The notes below the pieces were generated by a model. The model ran no database searches. It was not told the origin of the DNA and was given only the letters and a program-made list of their open reading frames with translations. From assembly GCA_023134955.1 (NCBI GenBank), contig JAGLUC010000460.1, positions 1-32,208 of the forward strand: a DNA stretch of 32,208 nt. Direction: 5' to 3'. Position numbers and translations under genes: made by a program. The first letter of the stretch is position 1; each line of letters begins with the position of its first letter. Shown here piece after piece: positions 8,569 to 26,346 of the stretch. Source of the stretch: Methylococcales bacterium (lineage in GTDB: Bacteria > Pseudomonadota > Gammaproteobacteria > Methylococcales > Methylomonadaceae).

Positions 8569-8613
8569 TGGCTCCCCCAGACGGGCTCGAACCGCCGACC
8601 TAGTGATTAACAG
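8569..8613 (-). tRNA. 3' half of tRNA-Asn (GTT); island attachment site
   Basis: Reading the minus strand, the sequence runs from an anticodon loop CTGTTAA (anticodon GTT, Asn) through a 3' anticodon strand, AGGTC variable loop and T arm (GGCGG-TTCGAGC-CCGTC) to a TGGGGGA acceptor strand, G and CCA. The 5' half (TCCCCCA acceptor strand, D arm, 5' anticodon strand) is absent: upstream sequence is unrelated, and ATCGA does not pair with TCACT. Homology therefore begins at the anticodon loop, a usual crossover point for tyrosine integrases in tRNA genes. I read this as the distal attachment site, with the reconstituted intact tRNA-Asn expected at the other island end beyond the window. Confidence 0.8.
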
Positions 8614-8620
8614 TCGATTA

Positions 8621-8851: not shown

Positions 8852-9340
8852 CTATTCACCTACTCTATCCAAAATTTGCTTAATGACTGCAGGTGCAATC
8901 CTAAAACTTGACTGGTGCAAACATTCAAATACTTCTTTTGCTGAGCTAATTAATCCTCGCTGTTTTGCCATACCGATAATTGCTGCTGTGCCAATGACTT
9001 TTAATCCTTTTTCCTTGGCAACACTTCGTCCCGCTCGCTCATCCATGACCAATAAAACTTGACCTGTATATTGCATGGCAATATTAATACAGTCTGTTTC
9101 ACCTGCATCCAGATCGATATCTAACAATGGAATAATGGGTTCCTGCCAAATTTTAAGCCAACCCGATTCAAAAGCCTGAGTAATTACATCTTCACCCTGT
9201 GCTCCTGTTCCTGGTAAAACTTCATTTTTAACTGTTTCAGAAACATAAACAATATCAAATAGCTTGGGTAACCAGCTCAAACCATCCACGATAGCTAAAC
9301 CTATCAACGGACTGGCATCAATCACAACAAAGTTCTTCAT
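8852..9340 (-). CDS. DUF3368 PIN-like toxin
   Basis: A 162-residue protein of the DUF3368 (PIN-like) family, predicted to be the ribonuclease toxin of a type II toxin-antitoxin pair. Acidic residues expected of a PIN fold are present: Asp in VVIDASPLIGLA at the N-terminus, Glu in SETVKNEV, Asp/Glu in LDAGETDCINIA, and Asp in LLVMDERAGRSVA. The start at 9340 has an AAGG ribosome site. Its antitoxin is encoded 15 bp upstream on the same strand, so they form an operon. The pair sits just inside the island end, where addiction modules may help keep the island. Target RNA is unknown. All key acids are visible, so the toxin may be active. Confidence 0.8.
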   Translation of the reverse strand: MKNFVVIDASPLIGLAIVDGLSWLPKLFDIVYVSETVKNEVLPGTGAQGEDVITQAFESGWLKIWQEPIIPLLDIDLDAGETDCINIAMQYTGQVLLVMDERAGRSVAKEKGLKVIGTAAIIGMAKQRGLISSAKEVFECLHQSSFRIAPAVIKQILDRVGE

Positions 9341-9355
9341 GTGACCTTATTCCTA

Positions 9356-9697
9356 CTATTGCTGTAACCATTGCTCCAAAGTATCCATATCCTGGTCTAC
9401 TTCTTCTGCTGTTTGGTTAATAATTGGAATACCCAACCGAGAAATATGTTCAATAAAATCAGCTAAAGCCATTTTAGCTAACTTAGCCGAGCGAGCAATC
9501 GATAACTCTCCATCTTTAAACAAAGCTGTTGCCATCGCCTTTCTAACACCAGGCATGTCTATAATATTGCCAGTGTCTACCCCTACTATCAATGCATCGG
9601 GCTCATTTCTGTTCATGACTAAAACCAAATCGTCATGAGAATAACGTAGTGCTTCACTCGGGTTGTTTTTTAAACCACTGACATTAACAGTTTTCAT
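9356..9697 (-). CDS. Phd-like/UPF0175 antitoxin
   Basis: A 113-residue protein with two parts. Residues ~1-45 (MKTVNVSGLKNNPSEALRY...VLVMNRNEPDALIV) resemble a Phd/YefM antitoxin fold. Residues ~50-113 (AMATALFKDGELSIARSAKLAKM and onward) match the UPF0175 helix-turn-helix family that usually accompanies DUF3368 toxins. It should bind and neutralise the downstream toxin and autorepress the operon. The antitoxin-first order and short gap are standard for type II modules. A promoter-like TATAAT lies about 30 bases upstream of the start. Family placement is good; the fused arrangement is from my reading of the two halves. Confidence 0.75.
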   Translation of the reverse strand: MKTVNVSGLKNNPSEALRYSHDDLVLVMNRNEPDALIVGVDTGNIIDMPGVRKAMATALFKDGELSIARSAKLAKMALADFIEHISRLGIPIINQTAEEVDQDMDTLEQWLQQ

Positions 9698-9729
9698 GGG
9701 AATAACTCATAGGAATATTAGATGGGGTT

Positions 9730-9757
9730 ATTATAGTCCTAATTAATCAAAATTGAA
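9730..9757 (-). promoter_or_regulatory. Promoter of the DUF3368/UPF0175 operon
   Basis: On the minus strand a consensus -10 hexamer TATAAT (9730-9735) is preceded, after 16 bases, by TTCAAT (9752-9757), a weak -35. The -10 lies about 33 bases before the antitoxin ATG. Confidence 0.5.
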
Positions 9758-9788
9758 TGGTTTTGACCTAATTCATGTCAAAAACACC

Positions 9789-10202
9789 TTAATCAATCAG
9801 CCAATTTTCGACCTTTAAATTCTCAATATGACTAAATTTTTCGTCATTTTTAGTCACAACTGTTAATCCTAATGACAACGCATGGGCAGCAACTAATAAA
9901 TCATGATGACTCAGTGATACCCCTTTATTTTCGAGACTTACCCTGATTTTAGAATACAGCTCATCAATAGGTTCTTCCAGTGGCAAGATGGGCAGACTAT
10001 TTAAAACTTGCTCAACATTAAATGATAATTTTGGTGATTGATTTTTCTCTGCGCTGTAACGTAATGCACATGAAACTATAATACTGATGCAGCACTGTAA
10101 TTCTAGTCCTGATGACAGCATTCTTTCAGCAATCACACCCTGTGGATTTTTAATCAATTCAGAAACTGTATAGGTATCCAGTAAATAACGATATTTAGCC
10201 AT
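9789..10202 (-). CDS. vapC: VapC-type PIN toxin with altered active site
   Basis: A 137-residue PIN-domain protein of the VapC/FitB type, normally an endoribonuclease attacking tRNA or rRNA. Family landmarks are clear (YLLDT at 6-10, LNSLPILPLEEP near 68-77, DLLVAAHALSLGLTVVTKN at 101-119, LKVENWL near the end). Two conserved positions differ: the usual DTN is DTY (Tyr11), and the usual Ser-Glu-Leu-Arg-Tyr motif reads SCALRY, with Ala46 (codon GCA) where the conserved metal-binding Glu is expected. The other acids, Asp9 and Asp101, remain. Loss of the Glu should abolish or strongly weaken cleavage, so this may be an inert toxin kept with its antitoxin. Its ATG overlaps the vapB stop by one base, indicating translational coupling. 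Confidence 0.8.
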   Translation of the reverse strand: MAKYRYLLDTYTVSELIKNPQGVIAERMLSSGLELQCCISIIVSCALRYSAEKNQSPKLSFNVEQVLNSLPILPLEEPIDELYSKIRVSLENKGVSLSHHDLLVAAHALSLGLTVVTKNDEKFSHIENLKVENWLID

Positions 10203-10444
10203 TACAAAACATTTTCTGAGTCTACGGGAAAATCAATAATCTCTGGAAACTCTTCATTTAAAGGAGACAGAGATGCTAATACAGCCTTTAAACTTTTCTT
10301 TCTGACGGGTTCGATTATTAACTTGTCACCCTCTTTATGAATAATTGCTTCTGTCCCTTCTAATTCAAACTCTCGTGGAATTCGTATGGCTTGATTTCGG
10401 CCATTTCTAAATAAACTAACGTGTCGTTGATTGTTCAAAACCAT
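10202..10444 (-). CDS. vapB: VapB-type AbrB/MazE-fold antitoxin
   Basis: An 80-residue antitoxin of the swapped-hairpin AbrB/MazE type, with a VSLFRNGRNQAIRIPREFELEG N-terminus and an IIHKEGDKLIIEPV strand. It should bind VapC through its C-terminal tail and repress its own promoter. The start at 10444 has a GAGG ribosome site, and its stop codon overlaps the vapC start (TAATG). A perfect palindrome lies 22 bases upstream and is the likely operator. The gene looks intact although its toxin partner carries an active-site change. Confidence 0.85.
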   Translation of the reverse strand: MVLNNQRHVSLFRNGRNQAIRIPREFELEGTEAIIHKEGDKLIIEPVRKKSLKAVLASLSPLNEEFPEIIDFPVDSENVL

Positions 10445-10599: not shown

Positions 10600-10712
10600 A
10601 AAGCGCTGGTAATCAATGTGTGAAATGATAATTTCCGACAAATATAAAGTATTTCAATTGATTTCATAACAGTTCGTTTTATTACTTGTACAAAGCAACT
10701 CAGGCATATTAT

Positions 10713-11919
10713 ATGAAATTTACCGACAATCTTATAAAAGGTTTAAAACCTAAAAACAGCCCTTATCGACTATTTGAAAAAGGCTCAGATAAAGGTTTTG
10801 GTGTTCAAGTAACCAAGTCTGGAACAAAGTCTTTTTTCTTACAATATGCGCTAGATGGCAAAAGAAAATTTCTAAATCTTGGTCGATATCCCGCTATAAG
10901 TCTTTCTGATGCCCGTGATAAAGTCCGAGATAATCGTGAATTGCTTATTAATGGTGACCATATTAGCCAATATGGTTCTAAAGTCATACGGTAGTCTTGA
11001 AGATTTAATCAATTATTATATTGATCAAATGCGTTCTCAAGGAAAAAGGTCATGGGAAAAAGTTTATGCTGATATTCAATACAATGTATTCACAGTGCTG
11101 GATAATAATATACCTGCAAAAGAAATCAACTCCGCACAAATTAGAAAAGTAATACATAAAATCATCCAGCGTGGAGCGGTAGTTCAAGCTAACCGAGTTC
11201 GCTCTTATCTTCATCGAGCTTTTGAACTTGGAATTTTCCATGATAATGATCCGAAAAGTTTAAGCAATGAATTTATTTTTAACCTTTCAATCAACCCAGT
11301 AACTGCTGTCCCTAAAAATGCCAGTGCGGAAAAAGTGGGTGAACGAGCATTGTCTTTTGAGGAAATAGCTGTTATTTGGAACAGTGAAAAAATTGACGCA
11401 CCTATCCCTACATTATTAGCAATTAAGCTCATCCTAATTTTTGGAATTCGTCCTATTGAATTAACAGGCGCTAAAAAATCAGAATTCGATTTTAAAAGTC
11501 TCACTTGGTCTATCCCACCTGAACGTATTAAAAATAAGCGTTGGCATTTGTTACCTATTATCCCTCAGGCAAAACAGCTACTAGAAGAACTGTTACTATT
11601 TTCTGGTGAATCTGAATTTCTAATGCCAGGAAGATACAATCCAGAGGAATCGATTCATAAGACATCACTGGGACACTCCTTAAAAAAAACACAAAAACAA
11701 AATATTCATTATCCTGTTTTCACATTACGAGATTTAAGGCGAACTGCAAAAACAAGGATGGGAGAGCTCGGAATTAATAAATCTATTCGCGACATTATTC
11801 AAAACCATGCATTGAGTGATGTCAGCTCTAAACATTATGATCGCTGGGATTACATGCCAGAAAAACGGGAAGCATTAGAAAAATGGAGTCATTATCTTGA
11901 ATGTAAATTAATGAGCTGA
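10713..11919 (+). pseudogene. Frameshifted tRNA-type tyrosine integrase
   Basis: A phage/island integrase of the DUF4102-plus-catalytic-domain type split into two frames. The first (from ATG 10713) encodes the arm-binding N-terminus (KGLKPKNSPYRLFEKGSDKG and GRYPAISLSDARDKVRDNRELL) and stops at 10992-10994. The rest continues one frame over from about 10980 (YGSLEDLINYYIDQM) to 11919. The catalytic half looks intact: Arg in FGIRPIELTGAKKSEF, Lys in KNKRWHLLPI, the RDLRRTAKTRMGELG box (this subfamily often has Arg where others have His), QNHALSDVSS, and the nucleophile Tyr in KHYDRWDY. The sequence fits insertion into tRNA-Asn, whose remnant lies 2 kb away. One base change between 10940 and 10994 would restore the frame, so decay, recoding or sequence error all remain possible. 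Confidence 0.8.
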
Positions 11920-11951: not shown

Positions 11952-11976
11952 AAAAAACATCCTCATTTATTATGAG
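11952..11976 (-). terminator. Weak terminator after the relaxase gene
   Basis: On the minus strand CTCAT-AATAA-ATGAG forms a short hairpin overlapping the relaxase stop codon and is followed by GATG and six T. It separates the convergent relaxase and integrase genes. Confidence 0.35.
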
Positions 11977-13871
11977 ATTCTGGTCAAATGAGGGTTACTC
12001 GTAGGTGGCTCTTTAACCCCAAACACCTTTGATACATCCTCAAAAAGCACTGCATTAATAACGGCTTTTTTATTCACCCCCTTCACTGTGTATTTAACGA
12101 CATTCAAGCCTTTAGCATCTCTAACATGCCAGTTCTTTTTCAGCACCTTTTGTTGAATAGACGACCAGCTAGAAGTATCTTTATTACATTGTGATTTAGC
12201 AAAATCTTGAAAGATACCAGGGGTTATTAAAATAACGCCTTCATTGACGATGTGAATTCTAGCCTTGGCTTGATTAGCCTTTAAACTTCCAGCTTGAACC
12301 CCATCTTGTAACCACTTAAAAAACAAACTTACTTGATCCGCATTTGTACCAACATCATTATGGGTAGATAAAGTTACCTGCTTTTTTAACGATTCCTTAC
12401 TAGGAATGGTTGGCTCTGATTGAGTTGATAGTCTTGGCTCATTCTCCTCATTTTTTTTGACTTCAATTTCACCAGCAACACTCAACGTAATATTATCTTT
12501 GCTATCAGGACTTATAGAAGGTAAAAATGCTAACAGATCAGATTCATCCCCTTCTGTCACTGTAAAGTTCTGCTCCAATGGCTCTAATGCCTTATATTCT
12601 ATTTTTTCTAATGATGAGCTACCTGCACTACTCTCTGTAACATTTTTTGTACTCTCAATCTTAATCTGAGAAGCCGTTTTTTCTTGTGGCTTATTTTCAG
12701 ATAACTTAACATCCTTAGTAACAATACGCCCCTCAAAATTATTAGGCCGTTGTGCAAGGTTTACCCAGATTTTACTCGTTGCCATTTTGATCAAAGTAAG
12801 ATCATTACTCCAACCATCACCTTCTACGGTTACTGACCAGATGGCTTTATCACCATAAGGAATAATCACACCATGCTCCTGCAATACATCAAACAACCGA
12901 CCATTTTTAGTGGGAATGCCTGAATGCCCCTCCTGAATTAATTGTTCCCGAATAGCGTCTACTGTTCTCTTACTCACCAACCAACAGTCATCACCTTTAA
13001 TCCAGCCTGCTGCTCCATTTCTATTTAACGGTAACTCACCTTCCATCAATAAATAACGTAAAGCTGTTAACATCTTTTCATGTAAAGGCTTCGTTTTCAC
13101 TGTAGGCATTCGACTATTATCTGCACCTAAATTTGCAGCGACAGATTTACTATCAGCAATGCTAATAATTTCTCCAATGGATGCTGCGTTATCTATATCC
13201 CCCGAAAGACAGGCAAGCCAATGGGAAAAAATTGTCTGATCGCTACTAATCCATTTCATGCCTTGTGAAGAAATTATTCGACTGATCAATAACGGAGAGG
13301 CTTTTTCATGTAATTTATATTGCCGATTGTGTACAAACTCTGAGGTATACCACTGTCCTTGCTCATCTATAAATTGTTCCCAAGGCTCCCATTTTTGTTG
13401 TTGATGTTTTTCATCATAAATTGTCAGCACTTGGTCTACAGCAACTTTAGCTAAATCATGACAAAGTGCTGCAATAAACACCGCATAAGTCCACAAATCC
13501 TGTTTTTGACTAATTTCTTCTGCGCCTCCGGTTTCTGATAATAAATAAGATCTTCGTATTTTTAAGGCAATCACACAAACTTCAAGGGCATGAGTCAGCA
13601 TTCCTCCCAAACCTGCGTGATGATGAACCTCAGACGCAGGACATTGCTGTACAAATCGAGCATATTGGTGAATAGCAGAGAGGTAAAAACAATCAAAATT
13701 GACTTTAGATAGCCCTGCCAACTCATTAATTTGAGTCAACCGCCCTTTATGTGCACTCAGCAATTCATCAATAGATTTAACGTGAATAATACCTGGTACT
13801 TTAGGTGGTTTTAAGTATTTTATGGTTTCAGTATTTTGTTGTTCTCTACCCTTAAACCATTGTTTAAACAT
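11970..13871 (-). CDS. MobH-family relaxase (TraI_2 type)
   Basis: A 633-residue protein of the MobH relaxase family, whose TraI_2 domain has an HD-hydrolase-like metal site rather than the HUH fold. The N-terminal half carries HHHAGLGGMLTHALEV (83-98) and ALCHDLAK with the His138-Asp139 pair, the three-His/HD landmarks of the family. The middle has the GRLFDVLQEHGVI-type winged-helix region. The C-terminal ~120 residues (VSLFFKWLQDGVQAG onward) match the TraI_2_C domain. It should nick at an oriT and lead strand transfer during conjugation or mobilisation. I chose ATG 13871 over a TTG at 13877. It starts three bases after the upstream ATPase stop, so translation is probably coupled. Full-length TraI of SXT-type elements is somewhat longer. 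No mating-pair genes are visible here. Confidence 0.85.
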   Translation of the reverse strand: MFKQWFKGREQQNTETIKYLKPPKVPGIIHVKSIDELLSAHKGRLTQINELAGLSKVNFDCFYLSAIHQYARFVQQCPASEVHHHAGLGGMLTHALEVCVIALKIRRSYLLSETGGAEEISQKQDLWTYAVFIAALCHDLAKVAVDQVLTIYDEKHQQQKWEPWEQFIDEQGQWYTSEFVHNRQYKLHEKASPLLISRIISSQGMKWISSDQTIFSHWLACLSGDIDNAASIGEIISIADSKSVAANLGADNSRMPTVKTKPLHEKMLTALRYLLMEGELPLNRNGAAGWIKGDDCWLVSKRTVDAIREQLIQEGHSGIPTKNGRLFDVLQEHGVIIPYGDKAIWSVTVEGDGWSNDLTLIKMATSKIWVNLAQRPNNFEGRIVTKDVKLSENKPQEKTASQIKIESTKNVTESSAGSSSLEKIEYKALEPLEQNFTVTEGDESDLLAFLPSISPDSKDNITLSVAGEIEVKKNEENEPRLSTQSEPTIPSKESLKKQVTLSTHNDVGTNADQVSLFFKWLQDGVQAGSLKANQAKARIHIVNEGVILITPGIFQDFAKSQCNKDTSSWSSIQQKVLKKNWHVRDAKGLNVVKYTVKGVNKKAVINAVLFEDVSKVFGVKEPPTSNPHLTRIS

Positions 13872-13873
13872 AC

Positions 13874-15262
13874 TCAAACAACAGAAGCCAAGGTTGTTTC
13901 ATTTATAATCGCATTTTGAAACTTGGAGTCCATACTCCCTTTAAGCTGTAACTTTATTGCAGCGACCTGCTGAGGACGAATATACTTTAGAACAGAAGGT
14001 TCTATACGCAACTTTCGACAGGCCATATCCCAATAACTGGAATGTAATCCCAACAGAATTGTGGTTCCACAGTTGGTCAAAAAATCTTCGGAAAAATGAG
14101 TGGGTGATTGAGATGCACACCACAAACCTAAGCCAAACTTACGCCCTTCTTTGGCAATAATGTTAATAATATTACCACTGTCTTCTGAAATAAATTTATG
14201 CGCTTCATCAACAAACACAATATGCTGTATATCAGATTTCACTCCAGAATCACGGCATTGCCTAAAAATGCTTTCTAAGCGCATGAAAACAAACATAGAC
14301 TGCTCATCATCACTAAGATGTTTTATTTGATGGCAACGCCCATTAGCATCACCAAAAGCGGGAGGGTTTGGGTGAAATATTCCCGTAGCATTAAGAATAT
14401 TTAAGCGTTCTAAAACGCTTTGCAATACCTCTTTGCTGTTATATTTCATCACACCACTGATTTCATTCCCTGATTCGATATGATCAACATAGACTTCGAA
14501 TTCCGCTTTAACTTTTGATTTTGCAACCTCTAATGCTTTTTCAGTTTTTTCGATCTGTGCATCTTGATTAGATTTACTATACTTTTGCAATGCTCGATTC
14601 AGCTGTTTAGCTAAATAATTAACTTCTTCCAGTACTAATACAGCTTTAATATTAGTGCCTAGATAGAGAGAGCTTAATTTTCGTTCTGCAAAACTAAGAA
14701 GGTCATCCATCACTGGATAATATTGCCTTAGACCTTGATAATCCCCCTGTTTAATCAGGCTGTTTCGAGCTGCACCAGTAATTTCTTTTTTTCGCCAGGT
14801 ATTTGGTTCACAATCATTACACCCATTGATCCTATAGACATCATTTAGAAGGTTTCTAAGAGCTGTTTCTTGTTTTGAACCTAACTGTCTGCTAGTCGTA
14901 TTAAGCATATTAATTATTTCATTAATCCGCCTACGAACACCACCAGAGTGAGGATCAGGACTAACTGAAAGCAGGTTAAAACCTAATTGAGTTGACTCTG
15001 AATACAGTGCAGATCTTATTCCTGACTGATCAAGTTCATTATGAACATCGAAAATATCGACTTCTAAATTCTGCTCAATTGCATTTGTTAATAAACGTTG
15101 TGCCTGATAGCTTTTGCCCGTACCCGACATGCCTGTTAATAAAAGGTAGCCATTAATTAATTCTTGAGTATTTATGACAATAGGTTGATTGGTATTTTTT
15201 TGTCGATACAAATATTCGTTTAATCCAAAAATATGTTTCAAAGCCGACTCCAATAAATCCAC
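13874..15262 (-). CDS. HerA/VirD4-like ATPase next to the relaxase
   Basis: A 462-residue ATPase with Walker A TGMSGTGKS (residues ~43-51) and Walker B IVFVDEAH near 347, followed by an Arg/Gln sensor region (GLGLWCASQSP). The order and spacing resemble HerA/TraD-type DNA-translocating ATPases (DUF87-like). There is no obvious N-terminal membrane anchor. A Lys/Glu-rich, probably coiled-coil stretch (residues ~222-255) lies between the Walker motifs. Directly upstream of and nearly overlapping the MobH relaxase, it is a candidate coupling or substrate-delivery ATPase for island transfer. The start is a GTG at 15262; no in-frame ATG is near. The role in transfer is inferred from the neighbour. 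Confidence 0.7.
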   Translation of the reverse strand: MDLLESALKHIFGLNEYLYRQKNTNQPIVINTQELINGYLLLTGMSGTGKSYQAQRLLTNAIEQNLEVDIFDVHNELDQSGIRSALYSESTQLGFNLLSVSPDPHSGGVRRRINEIINMLNTTSRQLGSKQETALRNLLNDVYRINGCNDCEPNTWRKKEITGAARNSLIKQGDYQGLRQYYPVMDDLLSFAERKLSSLYLGTNIKAVLVLEEVNYLAKQLNRALQKYSKSNQDAQIEKTEKALEVAKSKVKAEFEVYVDHIESGNEISGVMKYNSKEVLQSVLERLNILNATGIFHPNPPAFGDANGRCHQIKHLSDDEQSMFVFMRLESIFRQCRDSGVKSDIQHIVFVDEAHKFISEDSGNIINIIAKEGRKFGLGLWCASQSPTHFSEDFLTNCGTTILLGLHSSYWDMACRKLRIEPSVLKYIRPQQVAAIKLQLKGSMDSKFQNAIINETTLASVV

Positions 15263-15302
15263 CGGACATGATATTCAATTTATTCTTGCATAGTAAATAT
15301 TA

Positions 15303-15327
15303 AACCCTCACTAAAAATTAGAGGGTT
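15303..15327. other. Short hairpin upstream of the HerA-like gene
   Basis: AACCCTC and GAGGGTT pair around an 11-base A/T-rich loop. A second small inverted repeat, ATCAAT/ATTGAT, follows at 15328-15344. Such clustered inverted repeats beside a relaxase operon could be part of an oriT, or simply a weak terminator. Confidence 0.3.
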
Positions 15328-15366
15328 ATCAATTAAATATTGATTAGCTATAAGATGACTCACATA

Positions 15367-15540
15367 TCACTTACCAACCCTCCCCAACCAGGTTGATCTA
15401 TTTGATTTTACAAACCAAAATAAAAATACTGAACTGATGAGTACGATAGATAAAATCAAAAATCGATTTCCTAAAGGTATTACATTAAGCGCGACTGGAA
15501 TGAGCTTGCGGTTGTAAAATGCAGATAATCCCTTCTGTGC
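15367..15540 (-). pseudogene. Remnant of a small membrane-protein gene
   Basis: A 57-residue open stretch reading KGLSAFYNRKLIPVALNVIP, then a hydrophobic helix (FLILSIVLISSVFLFWFV) and a basic tail to a TGA stop at 15367-15369. It looks like real protein, but no ATG, GTG or TTG is available before the upstream in-frame TAA. An out-of-frame ATG lies about 17 bases farther on. It may be a small transfer-associated membrane gene that has lost its start by an indel. I cannot name the family. The remaining bases 15541-15729 show nothing I can support. Confidence 0.35.
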
Positions 15541-15729
15541 TTATTTATTTTCCCATGACACTTTTGATTTTGGTAGGCGCTTAAAATCATCATAATTTGA
15601 ATAGAGTTAAGCGGTATATCTGACTACTTCCATTTGCCTTTTAATCATCACACTTCTTTTCAACAAGTGGTATATTTACGTTCATTATAGGATCTATTGT
15701 TTTACCAATCACTGGAATGCACTAAATAA

Positions 15730-16263
15730 ATGTCTACCTGCAGCCCTAACTTTAACTATTCTGATTTTTCTCAATGCGGTGTTACTCAAGCGAGTTATCA
15801 GCTTAGCAATCAAGCAAAAGACTCACGCACCTTAGATGCTATTCAGCAAATATGCCTTGATGTATTGGAACCTGTTGTTAAACAATTTGGCTCTCTTACA
15901 CTTACCTACGGCTTATGTTCTAATGATTTACTTCTGCAAATCAAAAAACAGTCGTCTCCTGGTATTGCCCCACAACTTGATCAGCATGCGGGGTACGAAG
16001 TAAACTCACGAGGGAACCGCATTTGCAAACGTGATGGCTTTGCTTGTGATTTTCATGTGGTTGGCATTGACTCCTTAACGGTTGCACAGTGGGTAGTAGT
16101 AAACCTGCCTTTTGACCGTCTGTATTTTTACGGTAAAGATAGGCCCCTGCATGTCAGTATTGCCCCTGAAAATAATTATGCGATTACGCTATTAGAACAA
16201 GCACCTTCTGAGCGCCGCATCCCCAAAAACATTAAAAAAGACGCTTTTCTGCTCAAAGAGTGA
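15730..16263 (+). CDS. Peptidase M15-like small protein
   Basis: A 177-residue protein whose C-terminal two thirds resemble the M15 D-Ala-D-Ala peptidase/endolysin fold. LDQHAGYE (His86), GFACDFHV (Asp107) and PLHVSIAP (His141) occupy the three zinc-ligand positions of that family. No signal peptide is visible, so it probably acts in the cytoplasm and need not be a cell-wall enzyme. It lies four bases before the phosphorothioation-associated methyltransferase and is surely cotranscribed, suggesting a part in the same DNA-modification or defence process. Substrate unknown. The start lacks a clear ribosome site. The M15 call rests on three short motifs and is moderate. Confidence 0.55.
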   Translation: MSTCSPNFNYSDFSQCGVTQASYQLSNQAKDSRTLDAIQQICLDVLEPVVKQFGSLTLTYGLCSNDLLLQIKKQSSPGIAPQLDQHAGYEVNSRGNRICKRDGFACDFHVVGIDSLTVAQWVVVNLPFDRLYFYGKDRPLHVSIAPENNYAITLLEQAPSERRIPKNIKKDAFLLKE

Positions 16264-16267
16264 CGCT

Positions 16268-18307
16268 ATGAATGCGAATGACTTCAATCAACTCATCAAG
16301 AAAGTAAAACTGGGTAAGCTAGTGGGTAATGCTCGCTATTTACATCGCAGTGCATTTGATGAAATCCCAGCTGAATTAACCGAGTTCATTCAGCTTATTG
16401 CGACTGCCTTAAAGGTTCCTGAAAATGATTGGAACATCATTAAGCTGCATACTCAACAATTTCGCATCTCATATTTAAATTACCCTGATTTTCACAGTGA
16501 CTCTTACCCTGCTTTGCACAACAGCATTACCGTGAATTTAGTGACTAAGACGCAAAAAGTTGCTAATTACACTGAAACTGAAAATGCCCCTATCCTGCAT
16601 CGTAAAGAATTATTTATCAGTCCTAAAGATGAACATTATGCTGAATTTGTAAGCATTACTGAAGAAGGTGTAGCGGCAGGACTGTACGAAAACAGCCGTA
16701 TTATTGGCTTCAAAAAGTCATGGGAACGTGTCATTCACCAAAAGGGCTATCAATTAGTCGATGGTCGTCTGTTTCGCTTAAGTGCTCTTCCCCAGTCAAA
16801 TACGCCTGATAACAAAATAGACCGGCACAAAACTGCTATACAGCGGCAATCCTTATCGACACCGATGAAAACGCTTGCCAAGCATAATTATCTAAGTGGT
16901 GAGTACACCCTATTTGATTATGGCTGTGGGTTGGGTGATGATTTACGTGAATTAGAAGCCCATGGTATTGATGCAGCAGGCTGGGACCCTACACATAGAC
17001 CCGAGGTTGACCGCTTCTCTTGTGACTTGGTTAATATTGGCTTTGTGATCAATGTGATTGAAGACAGAGAGGAACGTATTGAAGCCATTCAGCTGGCTTT
17101 TGAACTCGCCGATAAGTTACTGGTTGTTTCTGCCATGATTGCAGGTGATGCCCATATACAAAAGTTCACACCGTATAAAGATGGTGTCATTACCTCATTG
17201 AATACCTTTCAAAAATACTTTTCTCAATCTGAACTTCAAGGCTTTATAGAGAATACGTTAGATGAAAATGCGATTGCTGTCGGTCCTGGTGTTTTCTTTA
17301 TATTTAAGGACAAACTAGAAGAACAACTCTTTTTAGCGAGCAGGCAAACAAGGCATCATAGCTGGAAGCAGATCACTACACGACCTACCAGCAGTAAAGA
17401 AAAATTTGAGTTGGTATATGTCGAGCATGAAGCGTTATTTAAAGCGTTCTGGAACACCTGTTTAATCTTAGGTCGTATTCCTGCTAATGATGAGTTTGAT
17501 GAATCTGACAAAATAAAACAACTGGCAGGGTCTCATCATAAAGTTTTCACCCTGCTCGACAACCTATTTGAAGATAATGAGTTTGTACAAGCAGAACAAT
17601 ACCGGAAAGAAGACTTACTGGTCTATTTTGCCTTATCCCAATTTGATAAACGAAAACCTTATACCCAACTACCAGATGAATTACAGCGAGATGTAAAAGC
17701 CTTTTTCGGCAACTATAATAATGCCCAAGCCATTGCTAAAGAACTACTCTACTCAATTGCTGATACAGAGTTAATTACTGAAACAAGCTTAGCGGCACAG
17801 CAAGTATTAACTGCCAGCCACTTACTAGAAAATCACTCACTGACTTTTCACAAAGACTTTTTAGTACTACTTCCCGCCCTACTGAGAGTTTACGTGGGCT
17901 GTGCCGTGCAAATGTATGGAGAGCTAGAAGATATTCATCTCATCAAAATTCATTTTCATTCAGGCAAAGTGTCTTTTATGGGGTATGATGATTTTGATAA
18001 TTTACCACTACCCTTATTAACAGAGCGCATCAAAGTTAAATTAGCACAGCAGCAAGTGGATTATTTTGATTATATTGAGGAATACACGCCTCAGCCGCTT
18101 TATTTCAAATCAAACTACATCACGGACAGCTACCCTAATTACAAAAAACAAGTCAGCTTTGATAAGAAAATAGCGCTATTTTTACCCGTTCATAACCGCT
18201 ATGGCATTAAACTTGATGCGTTGAATATAATACTTGATAACAACCAAACAGAGATTAAAGGATTTAGATTTTATGCTAAAAAGCAACTTACTCATACAAA
18301 AGGATAG
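16268..18307 (+). CDS. DNA phosphorothioation-associated putative methyltransferase
   Basis: A 679-residue protein with a SAM-binding core: LFDYGCGLGDDLRELEAHG (residues ~215-233) is motif I, and CDLVNIGFVINVIEDREER follows where motifs II-IV are expected. Length and layout (long N-terminal domain, central methyltransferase, long C-terminal extension) match the family that co-occurs with dnd phosphorothioation clusters (TIGR04096, recalled from knowledge). Its acceptor is unknown, and the name reflects co-occurrence, not a tested activity. It follows an M15-like gene and precedes a zeta-like kinase and a cysteine desulfurase, all rightward. An AAAGAG ribosome site lies within the end of the preceding gene. 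No dndBCDE genes are in the window, so its partners here may be the leftward BREX-type operon. Confidence 0.8.
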   Translation: MNANDFNQLIKKVKLGKLVGNARYLHRSAFDEIPAELTEFIQLIATALKVPENDWNIIKLHTQQFRISYLNYPDFHSDSYPALHNSITVNLVTKTQKVANYTETENAPILHRKELFISPKDEHYAEFVSITEEGVAAGLYENSRIIGFKKSWERVIHQKGYQLVDGRLFRLSALPQSNTPDNKIDRHKTAIQRQSLSTPMKTLAKHNYLSGEYTLFDYGCGLGDDLRELEAHGIDAAGWDPTHRPEVDRFSCDLVNIGFVINVIEDREERIEAIQLAFELADKLLVVSAMIAGDAHIQKFTPYKDGVITSLNTFQKYFSQSELQGFIENTLDENAIAVGPGVFFIFKDKLEEQLFLASRQTRHHSWKQITTRPTSSKEKFELVYVEHEALFKAFWNTCLILGRIPANDEFDESDKIKQLAGSHHKVFTLLDNLFEDNEFVQAEQYRKEDLLVYFALSQFDKRKPYTQLPDELQRDVKAFFGNYNNAQAIAKELLYSIADTELITETSLAAQQVLTASHLLENHSLTFHKDFLVLLPALLRVYVGCAVQMYGELEDIHLIKIHFHSGKVSFMGYDDFDNLPLPLLTERIKVKLAQQQVDYFDYIEEYTPQPLYFKSNYITDSYPNYKKQVSFDKKIALFLPVHNRYGIKLDALNIILDNNQTEIKGFRFYAKKQLTHTKG

Positions 18308-19089: not shown

Positions 19090-20253
19090 ATGAATAAACC
19101 TATCTATCTTGACTACGCAGCCACAACCCCTGTTGACCCGACCGTTGCGGATCACATGATGCAACATCTTACCCTAGATGGTATTTTCGCTAATTCCGGC
19201 TCAATACAACACGTCCTTGGTGAACAAGCTGATACCACTATTGAACAGGCACGTAACAGCATCGCCCAACGATTACACTGCAAAGCCAAGGAAATCGTCT
19301 TTACCTCAGGTGCAACAGAATCCAACAATCTTGCTATTAGAGGCATCGCCTATAGTCGCAGCACACAAGACAAGCATATCATTAGCTGCCTAACTGAGCA
19401 TAAAGCAGTGCTAGACACCTGCAAGCAACTGGAAAAAGAAGGTTACAACCTCACTTACTTAAAGCCGAGCATTAACGGACTTATTGATCTTGATGAGCTA
19501 AAAAATGCAATCACTACAAAGACTATATTAGTCTCGATTATGCATGTTAATAATGAAACAGGTATCATTCAAGACATCCCTGCTATTGCAAAAATAACCC
19601 AAGAGAATAAGGTTCTTCTCCATGTTGATGCCGCTCAAAGTGCTGGGAAACTACCTATCAATCTAAGCGAGCTACCGATAGACTTACTCTCCCTCTCCGC
19701 TCATAAGTTTTATGGCCCTAAAGGTATCGGCTGTTTATTTATCCGCAATCGCGCAAAAATGCACTTACAAGCACTGACACAAGGTGGTGGGCAAGAATTT
19801 GGTTTACGTCCTGGTACATTAGCCACTCATCAAATAACTGGTATGGCTAAAGCACTTGAACTAGCTCATCAGCAGATGGATAAAGAACAACAGCAAGCTA
19901 AAACATTACAGCAGCAATTTCTGACCCAGTTGCACCCATTAGGTGGCATAACTATTAATGGTGAAATAGAGCACAGCCTTCCCAACATCCTTAACCTAAG
20001 TTTTGATAATGTTGGCGCAGATACGCTATTGACTGCATTAAGAGATAAAGTAGCCGCCGCCTCTGGCTCTGCCTGCAATTCAGGCGCTATTGAAGCATCT
20101 TATGTTTTAAGAGCAATGGGCATTGAAGGCGACCGACTCTATTCCGCTGTAAGATTCAGTTTTGGGCGCTACACAACAGAGAAAGATATCAATCAAGCCG
20201 TCGCCATTGTGAGCGAAGAAGTCCGGCGACTTAGGCTGTTGGCGGAAGGTTAA
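19090..20253 (+). CDS. dndA: Cysteine desulfurase (DndA/SspA/IscS-like)
   Basis: A 387-residue PLP-dependent cysteine desulfurase. Visible landmarks are YLDYAATTPVDP at the N-terminus, FTSGATESNNLAIRG (72-86), TEHKAVLDT with His104, HVDAAQSAGK (178-187), the PLP lysine in SLSAHKFYGPKG (Lys206), and the catalytic loop ASGSACNSGAIEASYVLRAMG with Cys329. It takes sulfur from L-cysteine as a protein-bound persulfide and delivers it to an acceptor. In a defence island beside a phosphorothioation-associated methyltransferase, and facing an operon with a PAPS-reductase-like protein, it most likely feeds DNA phosphorothioation (DndA or SspA role). The symbol dndA is a functional guess by context; iscS or nifS paralogues look very similar. 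Confidence 0.8.
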   Translation: MNKPIYLDYAATTPVDPTVADHMMQHLTLDGIFANSGSIQHVLGEQADTTIEQARNSIAQRLHCKAKEIVFTSGATESNNLAIRGIAYSRSTQDKHIISCLTEHKAVLDTCKQLEKEGYNLTYLKPSINGLIDLDELKNAITTKTILVSIMHVNNETGIIQDIPAIAKITQENKVLLHVDAAQSAGKLPINLSELPIDLLSLSAHKFYGPKGIGCLFIRNRAKMHLQALTQGGGQEFGLRPGTLATHQITGMAKALELAHQQMDKEQQQAKTLQQQFLTQLHPLGGITINGEIEHSLPNILNLSFDNVGADTLLTALRDKVAAASGSACNSGAIEASYVLRAMGIEGDRLYSAVRFSFGRYTTEKDINQAVAIVSEEVRRLRLLAEG

Positions 20254-20339: not shown

Positions 20340-22493
20340 TTAAATTTTTTTACGTTCCACAAAAAATTCCTGAGTAGGCACCTTAACGCCACCTGAGTCT
20401 AGGTGGTACTTCTCAAATAGAGACTTAGTTTCTGTGGTCAGCCAATGAGTTTCTAACCCTGAGTTATCCAGAAAATCAAAAGAGGTATACATAGGCTTAT
20501 TAGATTTAGCCATATTTTCACTTCCAGGCATAGGAAACATATTCCCTAAGGCATTCACATCGTCATCACGAGAGATTTCGCCATATTTATAATATGCAGA
20601 CTGTACTGCTCCTTCTGGACTAGATGGTTCCATATGATCAAGATGCATGTCTTGAATTTCCTTAGGCTTAAGGCTTAGTGAAAATGCTGCTTCCTTTAAG
20701 CATCCATTACCATCTAAATCTAGCTGCAACAAGCGGTAAAATAAGACCTTAACTCTCACCTCATTACTCCTATAACGCCATGGGGTTAACCAACTTTCTA
20801 AAGTCTTCTTATCAAGGCTTACACTATTAGGAATTAGTGACTCCGATCCTACCTTATTCGCCTTAATAATATGATTTGCCATATCTTTAGCCGGCTTATA
20901 GTCAGGAGCCATTAAGGTCGTTTTCCAGAAAATTCTAGCCTGCTCATGCACCTCTAGGTGCTTAGTATTATCACTAACTAATTCCTCTAAAACCTTCTTA
21001 GCAATATCAGTACTAAATACCTGAGTGTGATTTAACTTAATATATTGCAAAATAAAACTGACTAGCCCCGACAAAACTCCTTCATGGCCTAAAGCAAGAA
21101 GTAAATGTACCGTCTTAAAGGTATCCGTTTTATCAGAGAATTCAGCCTCTAAAGCTTTATTTACACGCCCATTAGCTTTTAACTTGAATATATCCAGAAA
21201 CTGTCGAATACACTCAAAAATGGAAAAGTCTTTATGTAAATCTTTACATGAATACCGGTCTTTATACCCATTTAAATAATCTTTAATTGCATCCCTAAAT
21301 TTATCATGGGACTTCAACCCTATTTTTGTAGACCCCGTTAAATAAGTCGTTGCTAAAAAGGCAATTAATTTATTATTTGTATCCGTGTTATTTTTAAAGA
21401 CCTTGTCTCCCCACTGCTCTTCCCTAGCAACAATTTCCTTATCAATATCTTCATCACTAATATTTGTGTTTTTACTAGAAATACATAAAGAGCGATAAAA
21501 TTGATTTTTCACCAAGTCCAGATCATCTAACGCCAAAGACCGATCATTCAATACCTCAAATAAAGTATAGGCATCTTCAGAGTTTCCTGTTTGAATAACA
21601 CAAAGCTTGACCCCCTCCAAAAATGCAACAGCAGAGTCAATAATTGAAAGCGAGGTTTTAAATGGTGAGAGTGTTCTCCCCTTACTTCTTATCTTGCTTA
21701 TTTCAACTAGTGAATCAAAAATTTGCTCAACAGCGTTTAGGTACACTGATTCAATACACTCATTAGTTAAGTTAGACCGGTCAACCTCGACTTTTAACGC
21801 ATGCTGACTATCACTCCTAACAATGATTCGTGATAATGCCTTGCATAAAGATAAATTATATGAGTTGCGATCATACGATAACCTAGGCAAGTAAACTTCA
21901 GTAAACGTTAACAGTTTTGCAATATATCTTTCAGAAAAGTCCTCTTCGGATTCTGGTTCACTAGGTAAATGAACAATTGATAAATATTCGTCTAATATTT
22001 TTTGCAACGCAGTCTCATTTGAATCACTTCCAGCATCAAAAGATTCTTCAAGATCATCTATATCAATAATTTTCGGTATATCTTTGGTGACAGCATACTT
22101 TATTGATGTATTAAATTTATCTAGTAAGCCTGAAATTGCAATTTGTTGCTTACCAACTAAAGCCTCTCGTATAGTCGTGCGTAATAATAGAAAAAGTAGA
22201 AAGTTGGTTAAATAGATTGTTGTAAATCGTTGTTGTCCATCAATTAGCTGATGCAATAACACATCGGCCTTAGAGGTACTGACAGTAACAATAGAGCCCG
22301 CAAAATACTCACCATCAGTATTTTTCTGATTCTCTAGGCTCCAATCATCTAAAAGTTGCTTAACAATATCCTTTCCCCATTTATAAGGGCGCTGATAATG
22401 TGGAATTCTAATATCACCAATAGTTTCATCATTTGTACCAATATCACAACTTAACTTATAAAAATTTCTTACTTCAGCGCCCTTTAAATCCAT
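20340..22493 (-). CDS. DUF262-DUF1524 nuclease, SspE/GmrSD-like
   Basis: A 717-residue two-domain protein. The N-terminal DUF262 (ParB-like NTPase) has IPHYQRPYKW (30-39) and the signature DGQQR at 85-89. The C-terminal DUF1524 HNH-like nuclease has LDHMEP (His620) and VNALGNMFPMPGSENMAKSN, with the conserved Asn residues near 647-665. This architecture is shared by the modification-dependent GmrSD enzymes and by SspE, the phosphorothioate-sensing effector that nicks phage DNA. It is the last gene of the leftward operon, 166 bases after brxL, with a TAGGAG ribosome site. Given the desulfurase and PAPS-reductase-like genes around it, the SspE-like role is favoured over a glucosyl-HMC restriction role. 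It could still be a general DUF262 defence protein. Confidence 0.8.
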   Translation of the reverse strand: MDLKGAEVRNFYKLSCDIGTNDETIGDIRIPHYQRPYKWGKDIVKQLLDDWSLENQKNTDGEYFAGSIVTVSTSKADVLLHQLIDGQQRFTTIYLTNFLLFLLLRTTIREALVGKQQIAISGLLDKFNTSIKYAVTKDIPKIIDIDDLEESFDAGSDSNETALQKILDEYLSIVHLPSEPESEEDFSERYIAKLLTFTEVYLPRLSYDRNSYNLSLCKALSRIIVRSDSQHALKVEVDRSNLTNECIESVYLNAVEQIFDSLVEISKIRSKGRTLSPFKTSLSIIDSAVAFLEGVKLCVIQTGNSEDAYTLFEVLNDRSLALDDLDLVKNQFYRSLCISSKNTNISDEDIDKEIVAREEQWGDKVFKNNTDTNNKLIAFLATTYLTGSTKIGLKSHDKFRDAIKDYLNGYKDRYSCKDLHKDFSIFECIRQFLDIFKLKANGRVNKALEAEFSDKTDTFKTVHLLLALGHEGVLSGLVSFILQYIKLNHTQVFSTDIAKKVLEELVSDNTKHLEVHEQARIFWKTTLMAPDYKPAKDMANHIIKANKVGSESLIPNSVSLDKKTLESWLTPWRYRSNEVRVKVLFYRLLQLDLDGNGCLKEAAFSLSLKPKEIQDMHLDHMEPSSPEGAVQSAYYKYGEISRDDDVNALGNMFPMPGSENMAKSNKPMYTSFDFLDNSGLETHWLTTETKSLFEKYHLDSGGVKVPTQEFFVERKKI

Positions 22494-22585: not shown

Positions 22586-22684
22586 TTAAAAACTTTGATA
22601 ACCCAAGGCTTCTAATTTTGAGTTGCCTTGCTTAATTCGTGCACGATCCTTAGTAACCCCTAATAACTCAACTTCATCACCCGC
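22586..22684 (-). other. Out-of-frame continuation of brxL
   Basis: Beyond the annotated brxL stop, another minus-strand frame (codons from 22684) reads AGDEVELLGVTKDRARIKQG and then NSKLEALGYQSF to a TAA at 22586-22588. It has no start codon, protein-like composition, and begins exactly where the brxL frame turns (DKRVMKLSY). Inserting one base in the AA at 22685-22686 would join brxL to this 32-residue tail. I read it as the native C-terminus detached by a one-base deletion. Confidence 0.45.
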
Positions 22685-24066
22685 TTATCACCACCAAACT
22701 CACTTGGATTAAGCTCAGCTAATTGATCCCTAACTCTCTGCCTTAAATCTTTAGCGGGAGCCATAACATACTCTTCATAACCTGGATCATCAGGATTTAA
22801 CAGCAATAATTTAGACAACGCTGAAGCCAATCGAGTAACCGCTTTTACATCGCGACTATCCCCTTTGAGGGTAGGCACTACACCATAGGGGAATTCAACA
22901 TGACTCACCAATCGTAGTTGGTGTAAAAACTGTCCGAAAACATCGGCCTTAATACCGTAACCATGTGCTGCAGATTCCGTTGTGAAACGTGGTATTTTCC
23001 AGCCTGGAATAATGCCATGAAACCGATCTAATAACGCATCATCTTGGAACATTTCAGGTAAACTTTTAATATAGTCTTGCTGTCGAGGCAGACCCTCATG
23101 AATACCAATATTAGCTAGTACAATCAAACCGCACTCGCTCGTTATTTTTTCTTGGCCCACACTATATTGTCCAGACTCTAAAAAGTCTTTAAATTTGGCA
23201 TGGATATCATCCGCACCTTTAAAGTTAATTGACTGCCCTTCATCTAAAACCAATAAATCATATTTCCCAATAAGCCCCACTTCCTTGGTAGATAGATTCA
23301 TAAACAACTGTGCCTGAGTTAAAGCTCCACCACTATTTAGCCATGTATAACGACTTAAATTTGAATAAATATATGATTTTCCTGTCCCTTTAGGGGCTAG
23401 CTCCATCATATTTAAATTATTTTGCACTAACGGTAGTAATCGCAACAACACATTATTTTGCTGTTCATCACTATAAGCGGAAGGTTCATACCCCATAGTT
23501 CGTAGCAATAATGCAATCCACTCTCGTGTACTGAACTCCTTTCTCGCATTAATTAACTGCTCCAAGCGTACCGATCCAGACTGCATAGGGTGAAATTCTA
23601 TTAATTCAACCACATTAGTTTTACCTTCCTCTCGCACAGCAAGTCGCCCAGCCCCCCACTGCCCACCCTCTAGCAATGAATCATTATTTTCTAAAACTTC
23701 ACTAGTCACATGTGCATTGCGCTCATCAATACAGGGAATAGCAATTAATTTCTTATCATTTTTAATATCAATCCTTGCATCAAATCGATCTAACAATACG
23801 ACCGACTCGTTTCTCTGTAATTGATATTTAATTTTTTCTTTTTCAGTTTTTGCCGGTAAATGCTTGCTCATAAAGCTTGTAATATCGTTGTAGACCTCAG
23901 CATTTGATTTATTAGGCTCTTGAAAACGTGAAATCAACCACTCTTCAACAAAACTGGGAATCGTTCGCTTATCACGAATTTTTAATTGCCTGACCAACGC
24001 TTTATCAATCGTTAGTTCACTAAAATTTTCTAGTATTTTAGTATCTAATTCTTCTTTATTAATCAT
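22660..24066 (-). CDS. brxL: BrxL, short AAA+ form
   Basis: A 468-residue BrxL-family AAA+ ATPase. The N-terminal region has a helical start, then VVLLDRFDARIDI and LLEGGQWGAGRL. The ATPase core has Walker A LAPKGTGKSYIYSNLSRY (223-240), Walker B LLVLDEGQS (271-279), a sensor-1 like VLANIG, and DALLDRFHGIIPGWKIPR with a candidate Arg finger. In type 1 BREX, BrxL is longer and has a Lon-like domain. Here nothing of that sort follows, so it is a short form of the kind found outside type 1. Its ATG follows the pglZ stop directly with GAGGGA upstream. The last residues may be out of frame: an alternative frame continues for 32 residues past the stop. Confidence 0.85.
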   Translation of the reverse strand: MINKEELDTKILENFSELTIDKALVRQLKIRDKRTIPSFVEEWLISRFQEPNKSNAEVYNDITSFMSKHLPAKTEKEKIKYQLQRNESVVLLDRFDARIDIKNDKKLIAIPCIDERNAHVTSEVLENNDSLLEGGQWGAGRLAVREEGKTNVVELIEFHPMQSGSVRLEQLINARKEFSTREWIALLLRTMGYEPSAYSDEQQNNVLLRLLPLVQNNLNMMELAPKGTGKSYIYSNLSRYTWLNSGGALTQAQLFMNLSTKEVGLIGKYDLLVLDEGQSINFKGADDIHAKFKDFLESGQYSVGQEKITSECGLIVLANIGIHEGLPRQQDYIKSLPEMFQDDALLDRFHGIIPGWKIPRFTTESAAHGYGIKADVFGQFLHQLRLVSHVEFPYGVVPTLKGDSRDVKAVTRLASALSKLLLLNPDDPGYEEYVMAPAKDLRQRVRDQLAELNPSEFGGDKRVMKLSY

Positions 24067-26346
24067 CTAAAACATTCCCTCAAACCCTTGTGTTGCCGAA
24101 TCTATACTAATTAATGGCTCTGGTAAAAAACAAGAAAAAACTTTTGAATTAACCTCATGCGCTCCCTCCCTGTCATAACTTAGCTCTATGGCTAATTCAA
24201 TCATACCGACCTGCTCGTTATCGGAAGAAAAGTTTAGAAGCAGGCGACGAGATTCCCCTTTAGACATTGCTGTTGTTGATGCTTCTCCTATAAGAGGGAA
24301 CTTGAATTTCCATTTAATATTTTCAACAAAAACATCTGCGACTAATTCAGCCTCAATTTGCCACGATTTATCATTAATACGCTGGCACTTATCACTTAAA
24401 ATATTGACCATGAGTGGTGTGACACCTGCTTCAGCGTGTTTGGAAGAGAGCGTAACAAATGGAATCAACACTTCCTCAGGCGTTAACCCACCATGTGTTA
24501 GTAACGCGTCATCCGTTAACCCCACTCTTTCCTTAGGCACCAAATAAGATTTCTTTCCACCAGAATTAATGAATGCAAAACCTTCTGGCTCTTGCCCATA
24601 ATCACAAGGAACAGAAAAAACTCGCTCTTTGGTATCACCTAATTTATCACCCTGATATTTTGACCGAGTCACCGTCATACCATGATCAGCGGTAATTAAA
24701 AACACCACATCCCGATGTAAGTAAGCAGCGTCTTTACTCCAACGCTCTACCGACTCCATCAGCTGCCGTAAAACCAATGAAACATCTTTTCTATGCTTCT
24801 CAAAATCAACGCAGTCATGTAAGCGCTCATCAATTCTATTCTCGAAAAAAACCAGTAAATTTGTTTCTTCTTTGATGTGCTCTTTTTTAGATTCCTGCCA
24901 ACTTTTAACAACCCTCAAAGAATCCTGCTCGGGTAAATACTGACCATACACTTGTCGTATTGCCATTTCTTTATCGCTCGGTAACTTACTGGTCTCTTTT
25001 CCCGTTATCAGCGCCATTTTTCCAACTTCAGTTAAGGTAGGTAAAGGCGAAAATAAGGTTTCACTGCCTAACGATAGATGATTAACCTTAGAGGCACTTT
25101 CAAGCAATAAATCCTGATTTAAGGCTGAAAGCGCATCAACCATGCAAACAACAACTAAGTATCCTTTTTCAAGGTACTTATCAACGCGTGTAGAAAACTG
25201 CCTCCAATCCGATTCCGAGCGCGCGATACGCGCTGACTGAGCGAGCAACCAATGGGAAAAACTTAAATTTAAAGTATTATCAACAGCTTGCTCAGATAAA
25301 AACTGCTGCCGGATAAAATCAAAATAACCTTGGCTCCATTTATGCACCTCACTCATCGTAGAACTCTGAGATAACACTCCAAATTTTGAACGATCCAAAA
25401 TACCTGAGAACTCAACAGCGTACTGATTGACTAACTCATCATCAAACTCTGCCAACTTACTGATAAGCTCATCAGATATATAGCTTATATTATTCTGTAC
25501 TAGCTCATTTAACCGCATTAAAACCAATGGCCATGGTGCAATAACTAACTCAGCCAAGACCATTACTTCCAACTCTCCTTTATCAACTAAGCGATAAGAC
25601 CTTTCAATAGCCTCTATACACTTAACAGGTAAATCCTTTGCCCTCGCTTCAGATAACTCCAACAAAGGTAATTCAAGTAATAAGGTTGATAAAGACCTAG
25701 CTGGCAGGGCAATATTAAGGTGGAATTTAGAAATATTTTTACGCAACAATTCTTGGTGCTGCTCATAAGCAAGGCTAGCAATAAAGGCAGGAACAGACTC
25801 AGACTGTAATAAGTCATGAATGAATCTCTCAGACAACTCTTCTGATAAATTAAACTCATGTTTTAAATAGGTGATGAAATAAGACTTCACCTCACTTTCT
25901 TTAAATATCACCCAAAACGCATTACTCTGATTAAGAAGTGCCTGTGAAAAACACACAAAATCTTTTACCATAAGCCCTGCATCAACGCTCATGACAATAA
26001 TATCAATGAGACTCAAGTCCGTTAGATCTTCCGGTATCTTATTCAATAACGCTAGCTGAATAATAAGCTCATCCGATAACCAACTGGGTAAATTCTGTTG
26101 CACTAAATGCCGATAAACAACCCGTGGAATTAAATACTGCGTAGGAAAAACACCATCTAAGCCTTCAAAATAGCCAAAACTATTAAAAACAGCCTTACTG
26201 CTAAATCGCACTCGCAAAACATCATTAGTATCACTTTTTAAATGCTGATTAATGGTATTCCTTAATGAATCTACCTTATCGTAATGGGCTGTTAAAGCTT
26301 CGTCAGCATCAATATTAAACGGGTCAAAAACAAACTGAACGCTCAT
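24067..26346 (-). CDS. pglZ: BREX phosphatase-fold protein PglZ
   Basis: A 759-residue protein of the PglZ family (alkaline-phosphatase fold), a core BREX component needed for protection, though its exact reaction in BREX is unsettled. The phosphatase-like domain starts near residue 397 with LVVVCMVDALS, whose Asp is a metal ligand. Further on is FLITADHGMTVTRSKY near 550, another metal-binding Asp-His, and LTHGGLTPEEVLIPFV near 620, typical of PglZ proteins. The first ~380 residues are helical and lineage-specific. A strong GAGGTGA ribosome site lies inside the end of brxC, six bases separate the two genes, and the stop abuts brxL, so this is a tight operon. Length is in the usual PglZ range. 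Confidence 0.9.
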   Translation of the reverse strand: MSVQFVFDPFNIDADEALTAHYDKVDSLRNTINQHLKSDTNDVLRVRFSSKAVFNSFGYFEGLDGVFPTQYLIPRVVYRHLVQQNLPSWLSDELIIQLALLNKIPEDLTDLSLIDIIVMSVDAGLMVKDFVCFSQALLNQSNAFWVIFKESEVKSYFITYLKHEFNLSEELSERFIHDLLQSESVPAFIASLAYEQHQELLRKNISKFHLNIALPARSLSTLLLELPLLELSEARAKDLPVKCIEAIERSYRLVDKGELEVMVLAELVIAPWPLVLMRLNELVQNNISYISDELISKLAEFDDELVNQYAVEFSGILDRSKFGVLSQSSTMSEVHKWSQGYFDFIRQQFLSEQAVDNTLNLSFSHWLLAQSARIARSESDWRQFSTRVDKYLEKGYLVVVCMVDALSALNQDLLLESASKVNHLSLGSETLFSPLPTLTEVGKMALITGKETSKLPSDKEMAIRQVYGQYLPEQDSLRVVKSWQESKKEHIKEETNLLVFFENRIDERLHDCVDFEKHRKDVSLVLRQLMESVERWSKDAAYLHRDVVFLITADHGMTVTRSKYQGDKLGDTKERVFSVPCDYGQEPEGFAFINSGGKKSYLVPKERVGLTDDALLTHGGLTPEEVLIPFVTLSSKHAEAGVTPLMVNILSDKCQRINDKSWQIEAELVADVFVENIKWKFKFPLIGEASTTAMSKGESRRLLLNFSSDNEQVGMIELAIELSYDREGAHEVNSKVFSCFLPEPLISIDSATQGFEGMF

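Follow-up and report, generated by a model that had tools for sequence, protein, structure and literature searches.

MOBH relaxases and the integrative and conjugative elements (ICEs) of the PFGI-1/pKLC102/ICEclc class are already known. In pKLC102 the transfer genes follow the order TIGR03759-transglycosylase-PFL_4695-TraD-TIGR03747-RAQPRD, with VirB4, TraG and then mobH-integrase further along. In PFGI-1 the relaxase PFL_4751 and the integrase PFL_4752 lie beside a tRNA gene (PMC2647930). For MOBH relaxosomes no covalent intermediate has been detected, and handover to the coupling protein is an open question (PMC12857230). Here we analysed a window of 32,208 nucleotides from a Methylococcales gammaproteobacterium, which is the whole of contig C402 (JAGLUC010000460.1) in a 3.14-Mb genome of 510 contigs, 92.5% complete. 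The window carries an ATPase gene and a mobH gene as a pair. We consider it highly probable that this pair forms the relaxase/integrase end of an ICE belonging to the above class (MOBH, with mating-pair formation of type MPF_G), that the ATPase is accessory to TraD, and that this copy is decayed. This reading draws on what was observed of gene identities, contig overlap and order, a neighbouring TraD, the transfer set beside the nearest homologous pair and a tRNA-Asn fragment.

The locus resembles the PFGI-1/pKLC102/ICEclc class in that the relaxase adjoins the integrase at one end and that the target is a tRNA gene (PMC2647930). Similarly, the order TIGR03759-transglycosylase-PFL_4695-TraD-TIGR03747 is kept, and cargo lies between the transfer genes and the relaxase. 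It differs in that the half from RAQPRD to TraG was not found, the integrase carries a frameshift and is convergent with mobH, not co-directional with it, and the target is tRNA-Asn instead of tRNA-Lys. Also, pKLC102 and pY89 have no ATPase upstream of mobH, whereas the window element has one. The features of the window are collected in Table 1.

Table 1. Features of the window (contig C402), in order of position.
Feature	Coordinates	Strand	Basis or remark
Displaced 3′ part of tRNA-Asn(GTT), island end point (attachment site, att)	8569..8615	-	47/76 nt, one mismatch
Two toxin-antitoxin-like pairs (DUF3368 + UPF0175; PIN + MazE-like)	8852..10444	-	between att and integrase
P4-type tyrosine integrase, N-terminal arm-binding domain (Arm-DNA-bind_3)	10686..10994	+	cut by frameshift
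Integrase catalytic part (Phage_integrase), other frame	10909..11919	+	convergent with mobH
MobH relaxase (TraI_2 + TraI_2_C), 635 aa	11970..13877	-	profile matches, 3H + HD motifs
HerA/DUF87-superfamily ATPase, soluble, 462 aa	13874..15262	-	profile, Walker motifs, hydropathy
Gap proposed as origin of transfer (oriT)	15263..15729		position only; presumably holds the ATPase promoter
177-aa protein + DNA-phosphorothioation-associated putative methyltransferase (TIGR04096)	15730..18307	+	NCBIfam
Cysteine desulfurase, SspA/DndA type	19090..20253	+	
GmrSD/SspE-like restriction protein	20340..22493	-	
BrxL, PglZ-like, SspC/BrxC-like ATPase, 155-aa protein, SspB (DUF4007), SspD (cut; continues on C296)	22660..32208	-	
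150-bp terminal overlap with C296:12395-12544	32059..32208		joins island to TraD + ICE genes

Identity of the relaxase and the ATPase

A reading made earlier from the letters of the window (hereafter the sequence-only reading) had proposed two coupled genes of an island, one for a MobH-type relaxase and the other for a HerA-like P-loop ATPase without an obvious membrane anchor. Both open reading frames were confirmed at the coordinates it gave, and these proposals were all borne out. The ATPase gene comes first in the pair and overlaps mobH by 4 bp, mobH starting at TTG 13877 or ATG 13871; a tRNA fragment described below marks the island edge. MobH scored 351.6 bits with the NCBIfam MobH model NF041494 (cut-off 200), 178.8 bits with TIGR03760, the PFGI-1-class ICE relaxase (cut-off 161.4), and 213.6 bits with Pfam PF07514 (TraI_2; cut-off 23.9), and TraI_2_C was matched too. 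The 3H and HD metal-binding motifs, named for MOBH relaxases in PMC12857230, are found as HHHAG at residue 85 and CHDLAK at residue 139. HHHA..GGM..H.LE and CHDLAK could be aligned with the relaxases of pKLC102 and pY89. By profile and motif, MobH is a full-length MOBH relaxase with predicted nicking activity.

The ATPase scored 42.5 bits with PF01935 (DUF87/HerA; cut-off 23.2) and carries both Walker motifs, A at residue 44 and B at residue 347. Its best profile matches were DUF87/HerA and then VirB4-like models below threshold, and no TraD, TraG or VirD4 was present among its Pfam or NCBIfam matches, so that no family model of type IV coupling proteins (T4CPs) applies. We took a 19-residue stretch with a mean hydropathy of 1.6 as the criterion for a membrane segment. 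The maximum in the ATPase was 1.03, against 1.76 for the TraD encoded on contig C296 (see below): no membrane segment or N-terminal anchor was detected by this measure. Profile and Walker motifs place the protein in the HerA/FtsK superfamily, and a hexameric motor is predicted only. Structure prediction from two sequences (the window and L002) gave a mean pLDDT of 36. Viral contigs scanned for the ATPase gave no match.

A terminal overlap with a contig carrying TraD

The right end of the window falls within sspD. We observed that the window and C296, another contig of its genome, end in the same 150 bp without a single difference, a match placed exactly at both termini and found nowhere else in the bin; a similar terminal overlap was absent from six other contig ends tested. 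Joining the two contigs gave one uninterrupted, complete SspD. In the complete genome G008, from a member of the same family, the order across the join is sspB'-sspC'-sspD-sspB-orf155-sspC-pglZ-brxL. Because of the unique terminal identity, the intact SspD and the gene order kept in G008, C296 and the window contig are very probably, on these sequence comparisons, neighbours on one element.

A search of the same genome for ICE families returned PFL_4695 (TIGR03765) and coupling-protein matches on C296 and C303. Along C296, TIGR03759, transglycosylase and a small PIN toxin-antitoxin-like pair are followed by PFL_4695, TraD and TIGR03747, and then by sspB, sspC and the beginning of sspD. Its TraD is full length (TIGR03754, 999.6 bits), and the TIGR03759-TIGR03765-TIGR03747 block with a TOL/SXT-type TraD, characteristic of PFGI-1-class ICEs (MPF_G), is thus present. 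The other mark of the class, a relaxase adjoining a tyrosine integrase, was found in the window, where the end of the integrase and the stop of mobH are 50 bp apart. A distance of about 25 kb would then, very probably, separate TraD from MobH on a single element, which would measure at least 36 kb.

On C303 (L044, G000) we observed a second PFGI-1-class block of TIGR03759, transglycosylase, PFL_4695 and a TraD 81% identical, the contig ending inside TraD. It is possibly a second ICE or a helper.

The nearest homologous pair and the state of this copy

Metagenome-assembled genomes (MAGs) of Methylococcales supplied the nearest relatives of the pair. The closest pair, in G057 (a record labelled Methylomonas), has an ATPase 78% and a MobH 63% identical to those of the window. 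Contig C42 of this genome carries ATPase, MobH, a convergent integrase and tRNA-Thr, with TraG at its other end, and C43 extends from TIGR03759 through TraD, RAQPRD and VirB4 to TIGR03755, a near-complete transfer set. Judging by gene order, C42 and C43 presumably adjoin. The G057 ICE is of the same gene class as the window element and differs from it by having the VirB4 half and TraG, a tRNA-Thr target, another integrase and a displaced PFL_4695. Because this nearest homologous pair stands at the end of such an ICE, the pair is, by homology and context, native to the PFGI-1-class ICEs of this Methylococcales group.

Among the remaining hallmarks of the class, VirB4 (TIGR03744), TIGR03749 and TraG/TraG_N were not found in the window genome, and a defence cassette occupies the usual place of the RAQPRD-VirB4-TraG half. 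Because this half was not found and the integrase is frameshifted, the present copy is probably a decayed ICE carrying a phosphorothioation/BREX-like defence cassette. We infer a loss of transfer function as well as the exact limits of the element. Such a copy could now depend on a helper for the mating pore.

A special case of this reading is a derivative mobilised in trans, which would keep MobH, ATPase and TraD, would have lost the VirB4/TraG half and would use the pore of a sibling ICE, for example that of C303. The missing half and the second PFGI-1-class set with its similar TraD fragment fit such a derivative. Moreover, a near-same SspA-methyltransferase-orf177-ATPase junction occurs in a Methyloprofundus MAG of another genus (L003/G020; 85-96% protein identity, 96% for orf177), which suggests recent island transfer between genera. 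However, C303 ends before any pore gene is seen, the window integrase is frameshifted and the L003 ATPase frame is broken after about 100 residues. We regard mobilisation in trans as conceivable but doubtful.

Several points weigh against the decayed-ICE reading as a whole. The absence of VirB4 and TraG is provisional at this level of completeness and fragmentation, and a sequencing error could account for the integrase frameshift. That C296 and the window adjoin was deduced from assembly ends and not from reads, a repeat shared with an unbinned third contig would mimic the overlap, and in G008 an additional stretch of about 3.7 kb separates sspC' from sspD. To the left of the tRNA fragment, the genes differ from the tRNA-Asn neighbours in the relatives examined. 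Finally, it is only through guilt by association that the ATPase is given its role.

The upstream gap and the question of a minimal island

The sequence-only reading described a minimal, stand-alone mobilisation pair: an integrative mobilisable element (IME) in which MobH and a soluble ATPase, acting as coupling factor, would hand the island to a helper pore, with oriT in the gap upstream of the ATPase gene. Its observation that mating-pair genes are absent holds inside the 32,208-bp contig but fails on C296, where TraD, TIGR03747, PFL_4695/TIGR03765, TIGR03759 and the transglycosylase are encoded. The pair is very probably not minimal, because TraD and these ICE transfer genes lie on the overlapping contig; on its own terms the stand-alone description is thereby overturned, a canonical IME having neither coupling protein nor mating-pair genes. 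When read from a draft contig, an apparently "minimal" relaxase pair can thus be one end of a larger element with its coupling protein on the next contig.

Clustered inverted repeats had also been claimed for the gap. We counted 11 perfect repeats of at least 6 bp, against 9.2 +/- 3.1 in dinucleotide shuffles, and one of at least 8 bp against 0.7; the single 10-bp repeat was matched in 4% of shuffles. The inverted repeats are at chance level for DNA of 32% GC. L003 lacks the stretch that would form the second arm of I1 (15290-15309/15321-15340), the best of the imperfect pairs. Resemblance of the gap to that of G057, the nearest intact pair, is limited to about 50 bp by the ATPase start, and an Rfam scan of the window gave no match. 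An oriT near the relaxase operon is plausible; its placement in this gap found no sequence support in the repeats or in conservation.

An IME would agree with the lack of other transfer genes inside the contig, with VirB4, TraG and TIGR03749 not being found in the genome, and with an ATPase without membrane segment from a superfamily that contains all T4CPs (PMC12857230). Against it stand five ICE genes, TraD among them, on the contig overlapping the window end, the position of the nearest homologous pair within an ICE that has VirB4 and TraD, ATPase relatives adjoining TraD, the gap repeats at chance level and the fact that no MOBH IME was known in a 2017 review (PMC5704250). Given that review, a genuinely minimal MobH pair would have been of note. 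Such a pair is not supported by the evidence, and we consider this explanation very improbable.

Distribution and possible role of the ATPase

ATPase matches were obtained in 23 of 301 Methylococcales genomes. MobH lies within 1.5 kb of the ATPase in 16 of the 21 places counted outside the window, G057 and fragments, as a rule with TraD in the same gene run. The Methylococcales neighbourhoods that we read further have the order ATPase-(PH)-MobH-TraD-hyp-DUF4400, on plasmids and chromosomes. This is the traI-traD-traJ arrangement as in Rts1/SXT/R27 (PMC10838148). These operons share with the window an ATPase of the family (35-41% identity) upstream of mobH. They differ by an extra PH-domain gene, by TraD directly downstream and by a MobH only 15-17% identical, without the HD motif in the three aligned. 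In Pseudomonas-type plasmids with IncI-like genes, an ATPase of the family (about 39-40%) follows a TraM-recognition coupling protein in both of two records examined closely, one MOBP/MPF_I and the other untyped; in contrast to the window, no MobH is alongside.

By gene context, then, the ATPase appears to occur together with a T4CP and not in its place. Its proposed action as a soluble coupling factor is unlikely, relatives sitting beside TraD or the TraM-recognition coupling protein in the same gene run. Because it accompanies a T4CP, matches no T4CP model and has no anchor, we infer that it is an accessory motor between the relaxosome and TraD. MobH would nick oriT after excision of the element, and the soluble HerA-superfamily ATPase, carried by a branch of these ICEs, would remodel the relaxosome or feed it, or the unwound strand, to membrane-bound TraD. 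The ATPase would work beside TraD and not as a substitute; the decayed ICE would move only with help.

More tentatively, the family may be an unnamed soluble motor of several conjugation lineages (MOBH/MPF_G ICEs, MOBH-TraD operons and IncI-like Pseudomonas plasmids), working beside the membrane coupling protein, for instance in delivering MOBH relaxosomes, in which relaxase and DNA may not be covalently bonded, to TraD. No description of this family in transfer operons was found in a limited literature search. A general accessory motor would bear on how MOBH relaxosomes reach the coupling protein (PMC12857230).

The ATPase shares a motor core by profile with HerA helicases, TdpA and DptH and differs from them by a long region between the Walker motifs and by no NurA or DndFG pairing being seen here. 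That it belongs to the adjoining phosphorothioation genes, as a HerA-type antiphage motor or DndH-like protein, is most improbable and was rejected on gene context: it does score with DndH and HerA defence models and with DptH among solved structures, but its NCBIfam HerA matches fall far below curated cut-offs, it overlaps mobH and diverges from the next cargo gene, the G057 pair has no such cargo alongside, relatives lie in transfer operons, and G008 has the cassette with no ATPase or MobH match within the surrounding 80 kb.

Two further observations concern the pair. A degraded 45-residue ATPase piece (84% identity) lies at L042:1725-1859 (G000:C390), close to an HsdR-like gene of type I restriction, and may be what is left of another copy. 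Among the Methylococcales ATPase-MobH-TraD operons, the MobH proteins at L005:12288-14864, L049:7429-9339 and L053:5891-8266 are without the full 3H/HD motif while the rest of the domain aligns; from their sequences, these proteins may have no activity or work by a different chemistry.

Integrase end and island edge

A regenerated tRNA gene and a displaced fragment mark island ends (PMC4383910); a tRNA-Asn fragment and an intact tRNA-Asn were found. The tRNA-Asn fragment in the window is cut just 5′ of the anticodon, and its orientation would place the island to the right of 8615. The intact tRNA-Asn lies on C365 beside tRNA-Arg, with an N6-methylase and other island-like genes beyond its 3′ end, where the relatives G161 and G119 have tRNA-Ser and a YlqF-like GTPase. 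Tandem islands at the tRNA-Asn site are possible. The fragment with its downstream hairpin (8484-8615, 132 bp) is 92% identical to C365; therefore the left side of the window, with PFOR, a DHOD-like gene and a cation ATPase, lies outside the island or in a neighbouring one. A genus-wide DNA search for an empty site left of the island missed this PFOR-DHOD-cation ATPase neighbourhood and revealed the tRNA-Asn fragment. The 19-bp perfect hairpin at 8526-8567 was rejected as a feature of the island itself and is most likely the terminator of the tRNA, since relatives carry a hairpin like it downstream of tRNA-Asn.

Defence cargo

The cargo from 15730 to 32208, together with L043:7890-12544, forms a hybrid defence cassette: sspBCD with a second sspB/sspC-like pair, pglZ, brxL, SspE/GmrSD, SspA and the TIGR04096 methyltransferase. 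The window SspC was matched (E <= 1e-30) in 2 of 369 class-level genomes, its own included, and the gene order of the cassette is mostly kept in G008.

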